64,000 bases of DNA. It comes from Natrialbaceae archaeon AArc-T1-2. Lineage in GTDB: Archaea > Halobacteriota > Halobacteria > Halobacteriales > Natrialbaceae. Numbering within the stretch: the stretch's first letter is position 1; the number at the start of each line of letters is the position of its first letter. The stretch lies in NCBI RefSeq assembly GCF_030273315.1, contig NZ_CP127174.1, positions 930,001 through 994,000 on the forward strand. Direction: 5' to 3'. Positions 55,220-63,449 of this stretch are shown one piece after another. The notes under the pieces were generated by a model. The model had not been told where the DNA came from and did no database searches. It saw nothing but the letters and a program-made list of their open reading frames with translations. The position numbers were made by a program, and so were the translations under genes.

Positions 55220-56476
55220 TCAGGGGAACGAGCCGGCTTCCTCGAAAGAGTCGACGACGCGTTGAATCGCGACGATGTACGCCGCTTGCCGGAGCGTCTC
55301 GAGGTCGTGTTTCTCGTAGGCGTCGGTCAGGGCGTCGAAGCCGTCGACGATGATCCCCTCGAGTTCCTCGTTGACCTTCTCCTCGCTCCAGTAGAACCGC
55401 TGGCGGTTCTGGACCCACTCGAAGTAGGAAACGGTGACGCCGCCGGCGTTTGCCAGAATATCAGGAATGATGAGAACGTCCTCGGTTGCCAGCACCTCGT
55501 CGGCGGCAGGGGTAAGCGGCCCGTTTGCGGCCTCTGAGATCACGTCGGCACTAACGTCCTCGGCGAGATCGGCGTCGATTGCGTTCTCGAGGGCGGCGGG
55601 GATGAGAAGGTCGACGTCGAGGGTGAGCAGTTCCTCGTTCGTGAACTCCTCGTTGGCCTCGCTGTAGCCCGAGACCGTCCCGGTCTCGTTTTTGAACGCC
55701 TTGACGTCGCGAGCGTCGAACCCGTCCGCGTTGTAGATCGCGCCGCTCGAGTCGGAGACGGCGACGACGTCCGCCCCACGGTCCTCGACGAGTTTCGCGG
55801 CGATCCAGCCGGCGTTGCCATAGCCCTGGATGGCGACGGTCGCGTCAGAGAGGTCACGCCCGAGGTAGTCGAAGGCCTCGCGGGCAGCGATGATCGTCGA
55901 GCGGCCGGTCGCCTCGACGCGACCCTCGCTGCCGCCGCTGTCGAGTGCCTTCCCGGTGATGACTCCTGGCTCGGTCGTGTTCTCTAAGGTCTCGTAGGTG
56001 TCTTTGATCCAGTTCATCTCCCGCTGGCCCGTGTTGACGTCGGGTGCGGGAATGTCTTTGTCCTCGCCGATGAACGGGCGGAGCTCCTTTGCGAACGCGC
56101 GTGTGAGCCGTTCGATTTCGCTGTCGCTGTACTCGGTGGGATCGACGACGATGCCGCCTTTGCCGCCGCCGAACGGGATGTCGACGACAGCACACTTGTA
56201 GACCATCCATCCCGACAGCGCCGTGACTTCGTCGCGGGTGACGTTTGGGTGGTACCGGATACCGCCTTTGTACGGCCCGCGGTCGCCGTTGAACTGGGAC
56301 CGAAAGGCGGTAAAGCGCTCGAGCGACCCGTCGTCGAGCTCGACGGTGAGGTTCGTCTCGAGCACGCGTTCGGGGTGTTTGAGCCGCTCGATGACGTCGT
56401 CGCCAACGTCTAAGTATTCGGCGGCGTCGTCGACCTGTGACTGCAAGCTCTCGAACGGGTTCGCTTCCTCGGACAT
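55220..56476 (-). CDS. gdhA: Glutamate dehydrogenase (hexameric, Glu/Leu/Phe/Val family)
   Basis: A 418-residue dehydrogenase from ATG 56476 ([20 protein letters not shown]). The substrate lysine motif is [10 protein letters not shown]; the catalytic Lys/Asp region [15 protein letters not shown] and [12 protein letters not shown] are intact. The cofactor loop is [16 protein letters not shown]. It interconverts glutamate and 2-oxoglutarate plus ammonium. The TATA-like CTTAATTT (56501-56508 on the minus strand) lies 25-32 bases upstream, which fits a leaderless transcript, and three palindromes lie further upstream. Confidence 0.96.
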
Positions 56477-56543
56477 TGTACTGGATTTTCGGCGACCCCA
56501 AATTAAGCGTGTCGAATAACGCCGAAGGTATGAGATATAATAG

Positions 56544-56590
56544 CATATCATATGTAAATACAGTATTTATCCCATTGTATGGTAATACCA
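56544..56590 (-). promoter_or_regulatory. Cluster of three odd-centred palindromes upstream of gdhA
   Basis: CATATCATATG (56544-56554), TAAATACAGTATTTA (56555-56569) and TGGTAATACCA (56580-56590) are perfect inverted repeats around a single central base. They lie 36-89 bases upstream of the TATA-like box of gdhA, in an AT-rich patch of an otherwise GC-rich genome. They are candidate sites for an Lrp/AsnC-type or similar regulator of nitrogen metabolism. Confidence 0.5.
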
Positions 56591-56633
56591 CCGTTCGTCT
56601 TCGAGGGTGTTATCGAAGAAAACGAATGTTCAG

Positions 56634-57497
56634 TTATACGGCATCGTCGTCGACGTCGGCTGCTCCGGCGCGCTCGAGGATGCGCTCGGCCTGGGCGATC
56701 AGCGGGGCGTCGATCATCTCGCCGTCGACGGCGAAGACGCCCCGATCTTCGACGTCGGCCTCGCGTTCCCCCTCGAGGACGGCCCGGGCCCACTCGAGGT
56801 CGTCCGGGTCCGGCGTGAACGCTTCGTTGATCGTGGCGACCTGATCCGGATGGATCGCCAGCTTGCCGTCGTAGCCGAGTCCGATGGCGCGTTCGGTGGC
56901 CTCGACGAGCCCGTCTTCGTCCTCGAGATCGGTGAAGACGGTGTCGATCGCGTCGACGTCGAAGGCGGCGGCCGCGGTCACGACGCGTTGGTGGGCGTAG
57001 CGTGTCTCGGCTCCTGTACGGGTGCGGATCGCACCGACGTCGGCGACGAAATCTTCGGCCCCGAAGATCAGCGCGTCCGTCTCGCTGACGGCCGCGATCG
57101 CGTCGGCTTCGAGGACGCCACGAGCGCTCTCGACGAGCGCGAGGATCGAAACGTCGACGTCGTAGCTCGCGAGCCGACTCGACAGCGCTCCAACCTCGTC
57201 TGCGGACTCCACCTTCGGGAGCATGACGCCGTCGAGACGGACGTCTCCGGTGAGCACGCCCTCGAGGTCGTCGTTGACGCCGAAGCCGATGGGGTTGACC
57301 CGCAGGCAGACGTCGCAGTCGGGATCGAACTCGGGATCGGCGAGGACCTCGCGGACGGCCTCGCGTGCGTCCGCCTTTCGGTCCGGTACGACGGCGTCCT
57401 CGAGGTCGAAGACGATCACGTCGGCTCCCGATTCGGGCGCCGTTCGCATCATCCTCGGTCGATCGCCGGGCGTGAACATGACGCTTCTGCGAACCAT
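56634..57497 (-). CDS. HpcH/HpaI aldolase / CitE-like lyase
   Basis: A 287-residue CitE-type TIM barrel from ATG 57497 (MVRRSVMFTPGDRPRMM). Motifs are ADVIVFDLEDAVVPDRKADA, VNPIGFG, GVMLPKVESADEV, LIFGAEDFVADVG and GKLAIHPDQVATINEAFTP. The family covers citryl-CoA, malyl-CoA and beta-methylmalyl-CoA lyases. In haloarchaea such a lyase works in the methylaspartate cycle, which also uses glutamate dehydrogenase. The position between two gdh genes favours that reading but does not prove it. Confidence 0.88.
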   Translation of the reverse strand: MVRRSVMFTPGDRPRMMRTAPESGADVIVFDLEDAVVPDRKADAREAVREVLADPEFDPDCDVCLRVNPIGFGVNDDLEGVLTGDVRLDGVMLPKVESADEVGALSSRLASYDVDVSILALVESARGVLEADAIAAVSETDALIFGAEDFVADVGAIRTRTGAETRYAHQRVVTAAAAFDVDAIDTVFTDLEDEDGLVEATERAIGLGYDGKLAIHPDQVATINEAFTPDPDDLEWARAVLEGEREADVEDRGVFAVDGEMIDAPLIAQAERILERAGAADVDDDAV

Positions 57498-57556
57498 ACT
57501 CACGCTCTCGATAGGCGGCCGTTTCATACTACCGGCGCCTGCGGCCGGCTGTGGGT

Positions 57557-58831
57557 CTACGGCCAGAGACCGCGCATATCGTGGGCTTCGCCGACCCGTC
57601 GCAACGCGACGATGTACGCGGCGTCACGCCAGGTAACGTCGCGATTCTCGTACTCCGTTTGCATCGCCGCCCAGGCGTTGAGCATCTCGTTTTCGAGTTC
57701 CTCGTTGACCCGCGATAGGGTCCACGTGCGGCGGCTGATGTCCTGGAGCCACTCGAAGTACGAAACGGTGACGCCGCCGGCGTTCGCCAGGATGTCCGGG
57801 ATCACGGGGATCTCGCGATCCTCGAAGATCCGGTCGGCCGTCGAGGTCGCTGGCCCGTTCGCGCCCTCGACGATGAGATCGGCCTGGATCTCGTGGGCAT
57901 TCTCGCCCGTCAGGACGTTGCCGACCGCGGCCGGGATGAGGACGTCGACGTCCAGCGTGAGCAGTTCCTCGTTGGTCAGCGACTCCGGAGCGTCGTACCC
58001 CGAAACCATCCCGGGCCGTTCGTCGTGGTCCTCGACGTCGTTGGTGTCGAGCCCGGCGGGATCGTAGATCGCACCGTCGACGTCCGAGACGGCGACGACG
58101 TCCGCGCCGAGGTCCTCGAGGTAGCGGGCCGCGTTCGCGCCGACGCTACCGAATCCCTGGACGGCGACGGTCGTCTCGGTCACGTCGCGATCGTCGTACT
58201 CGAGTGCCTTCCGGGTGACGATGCCGACGCTTCGACCGGGGGCTTCCTCGCGACCGTACGAACCGCCGATGACCGGCGGCTTGCCGGTGACGATCCCGGG
58301 CGTGGTCTCGCCTTCCTGCATCGAGTAGGCGTCCATGAACCACGCCATCGTCTGTGGATCGGTCCCCATATCCGGCGCGGGAATGTCTTTCATCGGTCCG
58401 ATCACCGGCCGGAGCTCCTGGGCCAGCCGTCGGGTGAGTCGTTCTTTCTCGTCTGTGCTCAGGTCCTTGGGATCGACGACGACGCCACCCTTGCCGCCGC
58501 CGAAGGGGATGTCCATCAGCGCACACTTCCAGGTCATCCACATCGCGAGCCCGATACACTCCTGTTCGGTGACGCCTGGATGATAGCGCATCCCGCCTTT
58601 GTAGGGTCCCCGGACGTCGTCGTGGTGAGCCCGGTAAGCGGTGTACACCTCCGTCGAGCCGTCGTCGCGCTCGAGCGGAACCGTGGTCCGGTAGACGGAC
58701 GTCGCACGACGGAGTCGCTCGAGCGTGCTCTCGGTCACGTCGAGGTGAGCGGCCGCCCGCTCGAGCTGGCGGCGGGCGGTCTCGACGGCGGTCTCTTCTT
58801 CCGGTTCGTGAGCTGGGTCAGTAGAAGCCAT
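57557..58831 (-). CDS. gdhB: Glutamate dehydrogenase, second paralogue
   Basis: A 424-residue dehydrogenase starting [20 protein letters not shown]. Motifs are [27 protein letters not shown] and [15 protein letters not shown]. The cofactor loop GFGSVGANA differs from gdhA (GYGNAGWIA), so cofactor preference (NAD vs NADP) may differ. It shares the strand with the CitE-like gene (59-base gap) and gdhA downstream. The symbol gdhB is given by analogy. Confidence 0.94.
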
Positions 58832-59762: not shown

Positions 59763-61034
59763 TCACCGGTCCTCGAGGACGGCTCGTGCCGCCAGGCGGC
59801 CGCTTTCTATTGCGCCCTGGATCGACGACCACCGCGTGTAGTCGCCGGCGAGGTACACCGGGCCGGCGGGATCGCGGACGTCGGGCAGGTCGTCGTGAAC
59901 CCCGGGCGGCTGGGCGAACTGGGCGAAGGGTACCCGCTCGGTGTGGACGAGTTCGATCCGGTCGAACAGCCGTTCGGGATACCACGACGCGAGCGCCTCG
60001 GCCGTCAGCTCGGCCAGCTCACGGTCGCTTTCCGCGCGGTCGCCGAGGAAGGTCGCGCTCACGAGCGTCGCGTCCTCGGGCGCGTACTCCGGGGCGACCT
60101 CGCTGTGTGGAACGATCTGGTTCGGTCCCGCCTCCCCGGCGTTCAACAGCAGCCGCCCGTCGGTCCCGAGGTCGGTTCCCTCGGACAGCGCGTAGTACTG
60201 GGTCACGCAGGCACGCGCCTCGGTCGGAACGGACTCGAGGCCGGTCAGCTCCGCGGCCGTCGGCGGATCGGTAGCGACGACGACCGCATCGGCCGTCCGC
60301 TTCTCGCCGGCTACGGTGACAGTCGCCGTCTGACCGTTCGCCGACACCGACGTCACCGTGGCGTCGGTCTCGATCGTCGCGCCGGCCTCGCGGGCGCGTC
60401 TCGAGAGCTGTCGCGGGATTGCGGCCATCCCCTCTGCGGGGACGCCGACCTCGCCCGTGGCGAGTGCCCGAAACGTGTACTCGAAGACGCGCTTGGAGGT
60501 CGACAGCGACCGATCGAGCGTGATTCCTCCGTAAAAGGGTGCGACGAAGTTCTCGCGGAACTGTTTGGAGAACCCCTGCTCGCGGAGGTACGTTTCGATC
60601 GAGGTGTCCGGTCCGTCGAAGATCGACGACGGATCCGACGCCGTCAACCGCCGACGGAGTCGGAGCACGCGCAGCTTGTCGCCGATCGTGAGATCGGGGT
60701 TGAAAAGCGTCGCCGGGAGCGCGGTCGGCTCGCGAAGCGGATCCGACAGCGTCGATCGGTGCCCCGGGCGGGCGATGCAGGCCCCCGGCGAGAACGTCCG
60801 GAGGTCGAGGGCCTCGAGGTCGAGCTCTCGTCTGACGGCCGGGTAGGCGGTAAACAACACCTGAAAGCCCCGGTCGAACTGGTAGCCGTCGCGTTCGACG
60901 GTCCTGACGCGGCCACCGATCTCATCGCGGCGTTCGAACACCGCCACCGTCGCCCCGCCGGCCGCGAGGTGGCGGGCGGCGACGAGCCCGGCGAGTCCCC
61001 CGCCGGCGACGATTACGTCCAGTTCCGACGTCAT
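59763..61034 (-). CDS. FAD-dependent amine-oxidase/phytoene-desaturase-like enzyme
   Basis: A 423-residue flavoprotein from ATG 61034 (MTSELDVIVAGGGLAGLVAA). The dinucleotide motif is GGGLAGLVAARHLAAGGATV, followed by EIGGRVRT and FDRGFQVLFTAYP. The C-terminal FAD motif is VYLAGDYTRWSSIQGAIESG. Such proteins are carotenoid- or protoporphyrinogen-oxidase relatives; the exact substrate is open. It is divergent from the threonine-synthase-like gene at 61138. Confidence 0.92.
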   Translation of the reverse strand: MTSELDVIVAGGGLAGLVAARHLAAGGATVAVFERRDEIGGRVRTVERDGYQFDRGFQVLFTAYPAVRRELDLEALDLRTFSPGACIARPGHRSTLSDPLREPTALPATLFNPDLTIGDKLRVLRLRRRLTASDPSSIFDGPDTSIETYLREQGFSKQFRENFVAPFYGGITLDRSLSTSKRVFEYTFRALATGEVGVPAEGMAAIPRQLSRRAREAGATIETDATVTSVSANGQTATVTVAGEKRTADAVVVATDPPTAAELTGLESVPTEARACVTQYYALSEGTDLGTDGRLLLNAGEAGPNQIVPHSEVAPEYAPEDATLVSATFLGDRAESDRELAELTAEALASWYPERLFDRIELVHTERVPFAQFAQPPGVHDDLPDVRDPAGPVYLAGDYTRWSSIQGAIESGRLAARAVLEDR

Positions 61035-61137: not shown

Positions 61138-62331
61138 ATGGAGACGAACGAGACGCTCCTCGACCTCGAGTGCATCGACTGCGGGGAGACCGTCGACGCC
61201 GAGACGGCGGCCGCTCGCTGTCCGGAATGCGGAGGGATTCTCGACCCGGTCTACGACTACGACGCGATCGACCTCGATCGCGAGACGCTCGCGTCCCGAC
61301 CGCGTGACTCGATGTGGCGCTACGAGGAGTTGCTCCCGTTCGCCCGCGAGCGGGCGGTGACGACGAACGAGGGGGCAACGCCGCTTGTCGACTGTGGGGG
61401 CCTCGCGGCCGAACTCGGCGTCGAGCGCGTACTCTTCAAAGACGAGGGTCGAAACCCGACGGGATCGATCAGAGACCGCGAGGCTGCCGTCGCCGTCACC
61501 GCAGCCGCCGAGGCCGGCGTCGACGACGTCGCACTCCCCGCCGCGGGCGACGCCGGCCAGGCCGTCACAGCCTACGCCGGACGGGCCGACCTCGAGGCAC
61601 ACGTCTATCTCCCCTCGCGTGCGAGTCACACGACGAAGTCGATGGTGAACGTCCACGGTGGAGAGATGACCGTCGTCGGCGGGCGGTTTCCCGACGCCGC
61701 CGGGGCCTACGAGGAGGCGCTGGCCGAACACGACGGCTGGGAGCCGCTTTCGGCGTTCGATACCCCCTACCGCCACGAGGGAGCGAAGACGATCCTGTTC
61801 GAACTGCTCGAGGACCTCGAGTGGACGACGCCGGACGCAGTCGTCGTCCCGGCCGGCGACGGCGTAGCGCTCGCCGGACTGTACAAGGCCGGCACCGAAC
61901 TGCTCGAACTCGGACTGATCGACGAAATTCCCCCACTGTACGCCGCCCAGGCGGAAGGCTGTGCCCCGATCGTCGAGGCGTTCGACGTGGACGCGGAGGC
62001 CCACGAGCCGATCGACCACCCCGACACCATCTGTGGCGAGATCGAGATCCCCGATCCCGCCGGCGGTGCACTCGTCCTCGAGGCACTCCGTGCGACCGAC
62101 GGCGGTGCGGTCGCGACCGACGACGACGCGATTCTCGAGGCGGGTATCGCCGTCGCGAAAGGCGAGGGCCTCGAGATGGCTCCCTCGGCCGCGGCGGCGG
62201 CAAGCGGGACGTGGGAACTCGGCGAACGCGGGACGTTCGACGGCGACGAGACGGTCGTCGTCCTCAACACCGGCGCGGGTAACAAAGAGAGCGACGTGTT
62301 ACGCAGTCACCTGATGGGCAAGGGGATCTGA
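61138..62331 (+). CDS. Threonine-synthase-like PLP-fold protein lacking the PLP lysine
   Basis: A 397-residue fold-type II protein with an N-terminal zinc ribbon (Cys12, Cys15, Cys28, Cys31). The usual NPTGSFKDR motif reads NPTGSIRDR: position 112, where the Schiff-base lysine belongs, is Arg (codon AGA at 61471). The next PLP loop is AAGDAGQAVTAY rather than SSGN-like, and the C-terminus ends NTGAGNKESDVLRSHLMGKG. All else is colinear with ThrC. It may be catalytically dead, use another mechanism, or be regulatory. A nearly identical 3' end repeats at 63171. Confidence 0.88.
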   Translation: METNETLLDLECIDCGETVDAETAAARCPECGGILDPVYDYDAIDLDRETLASRPRDSMWRYEELLPFARERAVTTNEGATPLVDCGGLAAELGVERVLFKDEGRNPTGSIRDREAAVAVTAAAEAGVDDVALPAAGDAGQAVTAYAGRADLEAHVYLPSRASHTTKSMVNVHGGEMTVVGGRFPDAAGAYEEALAEHDGWEPLSAFDTPYRHEGAKTILFELLEDLEWTTPDAVVVPAGDGVALAGLYKAGTELLELGLIDEIPPLYAAQAEGCAPIVEAFDVDAEAHEPIDHPDTICGEIEIPDPAGGALVLEALRATDGGAVATDDDAILEAGIAVAKGEGLEMAPSAAAAASGTWELGERGTFDGDETVVVLNTGAGNKESDVLRSHLMGKGI

Positions 62332-62354: not shown

Positions 62355-63110
62355 TTAGTTTCCAGGTCCGACGCCGACGTCCGCCCACGGGACGTCGCCT
62401 TCCTCGAGGATGGTTTCGGGCTCTAACGCGTCGGCGTTGAACGCCGCGGCGAGTGCGGGCTCCGGTGGACGCTCCTCGCCCTCGTAGTCGGGATCTGCGG
62501 GCTCGGTTGCGGGACCGCCTCTCTCCTCACCGACGACGATCCGCATCCCCATGCCGAGGAACTCGTGTGGCGGACAGTACAGGTCCCAGACCCCCGGCTC
62601 GTCGAACGCACACAGCCAGTACGTGCCGGTGTCCATCATCGGCGAGGAGACGGGCTCTGCGTCGTCGGGTGCGCGGTGGGTTCGACCGAAGGCCCTGTGA
62701 AACGCCGCGACGGCGTGATCCGGCGTGTGGAAATCGAACCGGATCACGTCGCCGGGTTCGATCGCCAGCCCCGCGGGCTCGAAGAAAAACTCCGGTGGCC
62801 GATCCTCGTCTTCGTCGGGGTAGTCCATGAGAAGCTCGACGGTGTGGTCGTTCTCGACGGGCTGTTCGTCGTCCATCGAGACCGACGGGTAGCCGTAGCG
62901 AGGATGGAGATCGCCGGTATCACCGTTGCCGTTGCCCCCCTCGTCGTCATCGTCTTCCCCACCGTCGTTGCCGTTTCCACCGTTTTCCCCGTCGTCGGCT
63001 GGTTCCTCGGGGTCGTCGTCGCTTCCGAGACACCCCGCCGTCAACACTCCAGCCCCCACGATACCGCTGTACTGGAGGAATTGCCTTCGACTGTCAGAAT
63101 TTTCTGACAT
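62355..63110 (-). CDS. Cupredoxin-type TAT lipoprotein (halocyanin-like)
   Basis: A 251-residue protein starting MSENSDSRRQFLQYSGIVGA: a twin-arginine signal (SRRQFLQ) and a lipobox LTAGC with Cys27. A Gly/Asn/Asp-rich linker leads to a cupredoxin domain with type-1 copper ligands in TPDHAVAAF (His132) and LYCPPHEFLGM (Cys179, His182, Met187). It is exported folded and anchored to the outer face of the membrane, where it may pass electrons. It ends with an extra 60-residue tail. The gene sits between the ThrC-like gene and its broken duplicate. Confidence 0.92.
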   Translation of the reverse strand: MSENSDSRRQFLQYSGIVGAGVLTAGCLGSDDDPEEPADDGENGGNGNDGGEDDDDEGGNGNGDTGDLHPRYGYPSVSMDDEQPVENDHTVELLMDYPDEDEDRPPEFFFEPAGLAIEPGDVIRFDFHTPDHAVAAFHRAFGRTHRAPDDAEPVSSPMMDTGTYWLCAFDEPGVWDLYCPPHEFLGMGMRIVVGEERGGPATEPADPDYEGEERPPEPALAAAFNADALEPETILEEGDVPWADVGVGPGN

Positions 63111-63449
63111 TATATCCACACGATCATTTCGAAACCGGTTACAAAAGCGTGTCGGTTCAGCTATCGAACGCAGTGGACGTCGGAACTCGGCGAACGCGGG
63201 ACGTTCGACGGCAACGAGGCAGTCGTGATCGTCACCACCGCCGCGGGAAACGACGGGAGCGACGTGTCATGCAGTCACCTGATAGCGGATCCCGAGTTCG
63301 CTCCCTCGCAGGTTGAAATCGCGTAGCGGAGCTTTGGCCGGTTTGGCTGATCGCTCCCGTGCTTGTGCCATCTCTTATCCCTGAATTTTACTCCGTACAA
63401 CAGACTTATCTCACCGATAGAAATACCCCTACCGGTCGATGAGCCGGTA
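63111..63449. other. 339-base intergenic region containing the threonine-synthase fragment
   Basis: This lies between the minus-strand cupredoxin gene and the plus-strand 7TM gene. Apart from the broken 3' copy of the threonine-synthase-like gene (see 63171-63326), it has an AT-richer patch (63371-63430) that could carry the promoter of the 63450 gene. Confidence 0.55.
63171..63326 (+). pseudogene. Broken 3' copy of the threonine-synthase-like gene
   Basis: The frame reads ELGERGTFDGNEAVVIVTTA, then AGNDGSDVSCSHLI, and stops at TAG 63324. It corresponds to the end of the gene at 61138-62331 (ELGERGTFDGDETVVVLNTG, AGNKESDVLRSHLM). About 85% of bases match by eye over roughly 96 bases. No start or upstream domain is present. 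The last 14 codons are unrelated to the parent. It is a remnant of a duplication or recombination. Confidence 0.8.

Follow-up and report, generated by a model that had tools for sequence, protein, structure and literature searches.

A threonine-synthase-like protein without the Schiff-base lysine in a haloarchaeal genome, and its lysine-less relatives

The gene described here lies in the window (the whole stretch of 64,000 nucleotides of DNA that was analysed) and encodes a protein of the threonine synthase (ThrC) type in which arginine takes the place of the Schiff-base lysine (Table 1). This residue sits in the context NPTGSIRDRE, and Arg112 aligns with the lysine of GSFKDR in the solved threonine synthases 2zsj, 2d1f and 6cgq; the sequence and this alignment confirm what an earlier, sequence-only reading had claimed, namely an AGA codon at 61471, the motif NPTGSIRDR and a replaced PLP lysine. 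The window protein also differs from its lysine-bearing haloarchaeal relatives (the Lys type) at F111, G115, Q116, N138, K216, G241 and G301, which are spread along the gene, and most of its departures are common to independently sequenced relatives that also lack the lysine (the Lys-less type). Both Asn138 and Gly241 of the Lys type are replaced by aspartate; following ThrC annotation, we assume a cofactor-site role for the two positions, the former as an Asn contact and the latter within the cofactor loop, which we take to hold the cofactor phosphate. The alteration of the second PLP motif, also pointed out earlier, is borne out by the comparison with lysine-bearing relatives.

Table 1. Position of the threonine-synthase-like gene, its motifs and the adjoining gene in the window
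Feature	Position	Strand	Details or basis
ThrC-like fold-type II protein without Schiff-base Lys	61138..62331	+	397 aa plus stop; ATG start; no internal stops
Codon 112, AGA (Arg), PLP-lysine position	61471..61473	+	Sequence; alignment to solved ThrC; relatives
Zinc-ribbon-like Cys pairs C12/C15 and C28/C31 (CxxC...CxxC)	61171..61230	+	Sequence
AAGDAGQ, residues 135-141	61540..61560	+	Counterpart of Asn-bearing SAGNAGQ in Lys-bearing relatives
Altered loop PAGDGV, residues 238-243	61849..61866	+	PTGGGV in the Lys type
Divergent FAD amine-oxidase/phytoene-dehydrogenase-like gene	59763..61034	-	Likely ATG at 61034; longest ORF to 61175

The frame, the zinc ribbon and the fold had been described as preserved, and this holds for all three: the ORF is open, the four cysteines are present, the PALP domain (Pfam PF00291) is matched with 201.6 bits, and an AlphaFold2 model (mean pLDDT 96.9, pTM 0.94, from a 78-sequence alignment of the collected loci) has the threonine synthases 6nmx, 2zsj and 2d1f as its top Foldseek matches. 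The fold, the PALP domain and the zinc-ribbon-like N-terminus are thus common to the window protein and ThrC (EC 4.2.3.1; NCBIfam NF006050 / PRK08197), whereas the Schiff-base lysine is missing, the cofactor loop is altered and the score on TIGR00260 (thrC) is 143.1, under the cut-off of 167.1. On NF006050, named “threonine synthase”, the same protein reaches 340.7 against a cut-off of 303, so a Lys-less protein passes this model although the chemistry-defining residue is missing. Downstream, past a cupredoxin-like gene (62355-63119, minus strand), a 37-aa fragment at 63174-63284 on the plus strand resembles residues 357-393 of the window protein (65% aa identity, E 9.9e-8); its DNA identity to the window gene, 86% over 109 bp, exceeds its identity to each of the eight relatives compared, and the fragment is an incomplete copy of the 3' end of the gene, duplicated fairly recently.

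Relatives came from a genome-contig scan (80 of 89 loci kept), from searches of 293 genomes of the order, which yielded 30 loci, and of 80 genomes picked from these (78 genera, nearly all represented by a single genome, poor genomes omitted), and from 100 regions. Identity to the window protein was 40% or higher at 193 loci, and the 178 distinct, open sequences of no fewer than 365 aa among them formed the analysed set. The family is mostly single-copy per haloarchaeal genome. Position 112 is lysine in 88 of its members and one of 13 other residues in the remaining 90 (L24, A20, T18, V8, R7, Y4, D2, I2, and one each of E, H, Q, F and G); being mostly L, A, T or V, and acidic in just three of the 90, the position is still somewhat constrained in Lys-less proteins. 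All four zinc-ribbon-like cysteines are found in 86 of 88 Lys members and in 78 of 90 Lys-less ones. Scoring the 80-genome sample by residue 112 alone, 42 genomes hold only a Lys-less gene, 29 only a Lys gene, seven both and two neither, and the Lys-less gene is present in 49 of the 80, spread over many genera. No orthologous group conserves Arg112 itself, a point that had been raised as a check: the site is broadly variable, and since arginine occurs in only seven of the 90 Lys-less members and the sole congener found (genome G293; L217, the same protein as L059) has leucine, arginine is a minority state reached several times. In the tree it is found at three or more distinct points (the window gene, the group L033/L197/L199/L202, and L207; also the long-branched L168), which, together with the leucine of the congener, rules out arginine as a conserved functional replacement. 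L176 (G013) and L179 (G205 contig 2, a second copy within genome G205) are divergent Lys-bearing relatives with 44-46% identity and the motif NPTNTFKDRG, and they cluster in the tree.

The genome of the window also holds a lysine-bearing ThrC, as the earlier check had asked. This best Lys-bearing paralogue, L002, shares 37% identity with the window protein, carries NPTGSFKDRG and scores 282.6 on TIGR00260 (cut-off 167.1); homoserine kinase (thrB) is present as well (204.1, cut-off 168.25), and therefore the window protein is probably dispensable for making threonine by the textbook route. The same genome encodes L003, also ThrC-like and lysine-bearing, and L004, whose QRTGAFKIRG motif and C-terminal extension give it, on our reading, the look of a threonine deaminase. 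In Haloferax volcanii, one report describes a thrC3 (HVO_2969) insertion mutant rescued by glycine, serine and threonine (PMC4300041).

The divergent FAD oxidoreductase gene adjoins the window gene and, in several families, orthologues with and without the lysine, and a second gene arrangement in Natrialbaceae likewise houses both forms; other recurrent neighbours are, as we read them, phosphoesterase-like, DtxR-like, GGGP-synthase-like and Sir2-like genes. No functional hint came from these gene neighbours, the FAD oxidoreductase included. They bear on one explanation of the missing lysine, according to which the protein would be a non-catalytic subunit forming heterodimers with an active fold-type II enzyme, be it the canonical ThrC or another paralogue. 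Such an arrangement exists in serine palmitoyltransferase, where Lcb1 is the non-catalytic subunit paired with Lcb2, and it would suit both the kept fold and the presence of L002, L003 and L004 as lysine-bearing paralogues in the genome; we nonetheless regard it as unlikely, as no active paralogue is among the recurrent neighbours, which are the FAD oxidoreductase, phosphoesterase-like and DtxR-like genes. Orthologues in sister lineages, moreover, have an intact Lys site, and therefore the protein was probably once self-sufficient. These Lys-bearing orthologues (NPTGTFKDRG; e.g., L008 and L039), putative enzymes with up to 73% identity to the window protein and the same neighbourhood, keep Lys112, K216, G241, G301 and F111, whereas the window protein does not.

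The loss of lysine goes together with change at other sites of the protein. Five signature residues (F111, K216, G241, V243 and G301), several of which belong to the cofactor site, occur together in 84 of the 88 Lys rows. Of the Lys-less rows, 57 lack all five, 28 have one, four have two and one has three, which makes 85 of 90 with at most one. The exceptions among Lys rows are one with four of the five residues, L163 with two, and L011 and L038 with none. In L011 and L038 (Natrinema) and in L163, Lys112 stands amid an otherwise Lys-less-type signature, the codon in the Natrinema pair being AAG where relatives have ACG for threonine; these three are probably secondary returns to lysine within the Lys-less type. 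Entropy at position 112 is 0 bits in the Lys type and reaches 2.96 bits, the 7th highest of 397 positions, in the Lys-less type. No other position gains as much, and the adjoining D113 and R114 are invariant. Median entropy is 1.38 bits in the Lys-less type vs 0.61 in the Lys type; 46 positions are at least 95% conserved in both forms, and in the Lys-less type taken by itself 50 positions are at least 97% conserved. Invariant positions common to the Lys type and six canonical ThrC number 66, of which 13 fall below 80% in the Lys-less type, among them 112 (3%), 111 (11%), 156 (22%), 138 (71%) and 378 (70%). Over eight positions that we take to be the PLP contacts of M. tuberculosis ThrC, the median entropy gain is 1.71, vs 0.65 for other positions conserved in the Lys type (Mann-Whitney p 0.0026).

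These patterns weigh on a further alternative, namely that the protein is still an enzyme, either holding PLP non-covalently or running a PLP-free reaction in the old pocket. In its favour, canonical ThrC and both forms of the family have 34 conserved positions in common; about 70% of Lys-less members retain Asn138 and Thr378, presumably the Asn and Thr touching PLP, because of which weak non-covalent PLP binding may occur. This alternative seems doubtful to us nevertheless, as Gly241 has mostly become threonine, histidine or serine in Lys-less members, variability is also among the highest at other cofactor positions, and no new conserved lysine was found in the lysine columns of the 90 Lys-less rows.

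Regarding the number of lysine losses, the window gene pairs in the tree with L120, which has alanine at position 112, and belongs to a 37-row clade that is Lys-less save for L011 and L038. Parsimony gives seven changes on the 186-row tree and four on a 101-row tree from which columns 110-116 were removed, with rows thinned at 86% identity and 21 listed outgroup or very long rows omitted. Placing all Lys-less members and the Lys-bearing L011 and L038 in one clade is not rejected by the AU test (p 0.816), the log-likelihood being 34.7 higher under the constraint. A single old paralogue is opposed by the occurrence of both forms at one locus in several families and by the absence of any genome with both among the 58 Natrialbaceae genomes fetched; these two observations speak for change in place, and the signature residues common to Lys-less members favour one origin or strong convergence.

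Selection was assessed by Nei-Gojobori omega on disjoint close pairs with dS of 0.08-1.0. For the Lys-less type, in which the pairs include the Lys-bearing L011/L038 pair, the median was 0.153 (range 0.060-0.215, 21 pairs), and for the Lys type 0.112 (range 0.040-0.277, 34 pairs); constraint on the Lys-less type is therefore only slightly relaxed. Lys-less members are under purifying selection, as measured on Lys-less pairs other than the window lineage because the window gene has no close relative: its comparison with L059 (dN 0.229, dS 0.671) involves too distant a pair and is indicative only. The earlier reading had named homologues of the same clade that all have lysine, together with relaxed selection, as grounds against it; the former is contradicted by the 90 non-Lys members out of 178, and the latter is present to the slight degree just given. 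Decay of the gene, or neutral loss of the lysine through redundant activity, is very improbable. It would agree with the long end branches of many Lys-less rows and with the slightly raised median omega and the higher median entropy, but no internal stop was flagged in Lys-less members of the tabulated genomes, omega does not exceed 0.215 in any of the 21 pairs, 50 positions remain almost fixed, and the state recurs in many genera of the 80-genome sample. As frames are open and omega is low, the Lys-less family is not decaying, and a pseudogene reading is ruled out on the same grounds. A sequencing or assembly error at 61471-61473, which the single step from AAA (Lys) to AGA (Arg) would allow, has a negligible probability, and we reject it because many linked changes run across the gene, and dozens of genomes have non-Lys codons, including CGC or CGG for arginine.

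A second ThrC-like family with a replaced PLP lysine is found in Desulfurococcales (L108-L114, L116 and L237-L244), where the 16 rows have arginine (12), tyrosine (3) or phenylalanine (1) at this position. Its ThrC-like fold recalls the window protein, from which it differs in having about 30% identity and a C-terminal winged helix/HTH; the Pfam HTH matches lie mostly just below curated cut-offs, HTH_24 in L108 being above (25.1 vs 21.9). The family occurs in 10 of 78 genomes searched at E <=1e-80, the genome of the query included, and Lys-bearing paralogues were found in all six of its genomes searched for them. Its lysine loss is probably independent of the haloarchaeal one, and by analogy the winged helix hints at a sensor role. 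Lys-less relatives of PLP enzymes are also known in other fold types, such as Lcb1, antizyme inhibitor and ColD. These three resemble the window protein in using a PLP-enzyme scaffold whose catalytic lysine is missing or replaced, and differ in that none is a ThrC-type fold-type II protein. In the open-access literature, to which our search was mostly directed, no lysine-less threonine-synthase family was found.

On balance, we read the window gene as coding for a conserved pseudoenzyme that does not depend on PLP and descends from a ThrC-like enzyme of haloarchaea. The earlier suggestion of a non-PLP or pseudo-enzyme kept by selection gains support from the Lys-less half of the family, the open frames, the low dN/dS and the joint change of the cofactor site, and from these we infer that PLP is not bound. 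Judging from its residues, the window protein would make neither an internal aldimine nor threonine. The Schiff-base lysine is gone and further PLP-site positions have changed alongside, with the predicted fold kept. The old substrate pocket, in which many residues (G79, T81, K101, N106, T108, G137, Q141, R212 and Q271) are conserved in both forms, would most likely bind a small anionic or amino-acid-like ligand, which is the least certain part of this reading, and the protein might, in response to that ligand, regulate or partner other proteins instead of catalysing a reaction. The Lys-less protein is probably a ligand-binding or regulatory protein; the sensor reading is one of analogy, because the haloarchaeal protein has no DNA-binding domain.

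A broader proposal, which we put forward tentatively and with clearly less confidence, is that a fold-type II PLP enzyme has become a PLP-free ligand sensor or regulator in the majority of the haloarchaeal genomes sampled. The switch might be a single ancient event, after which 13 different residues came to occupy the vestigial Lys site by drift and two lineages regained lysine, or it might have happened in place on several occasions, and the Desulfurococcales family might have made the same move with the fusion of a DNA-binding domain. Lys-less versions probably do a job other than the one their database name implies, and a class of mis-annotated genes is flagged in haloarchaeal metabolic models. 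Furthermore, with sister lineages, one locus and about 90 distinct sequences per form, the family offers a clean comparative system for the passage from cofactor enzyme to pseudoenzyme.

Elsewhere in the window, the minus strand at 55220-58831 carries a pair of genes resembling glutamate dehydrogenase (55220-56551 and 57557-58831, of which Pfam confirms the latter), between which sits an ORF at 56634-57527 that, in our view, resembles a CitE/HpcH-type lyase.
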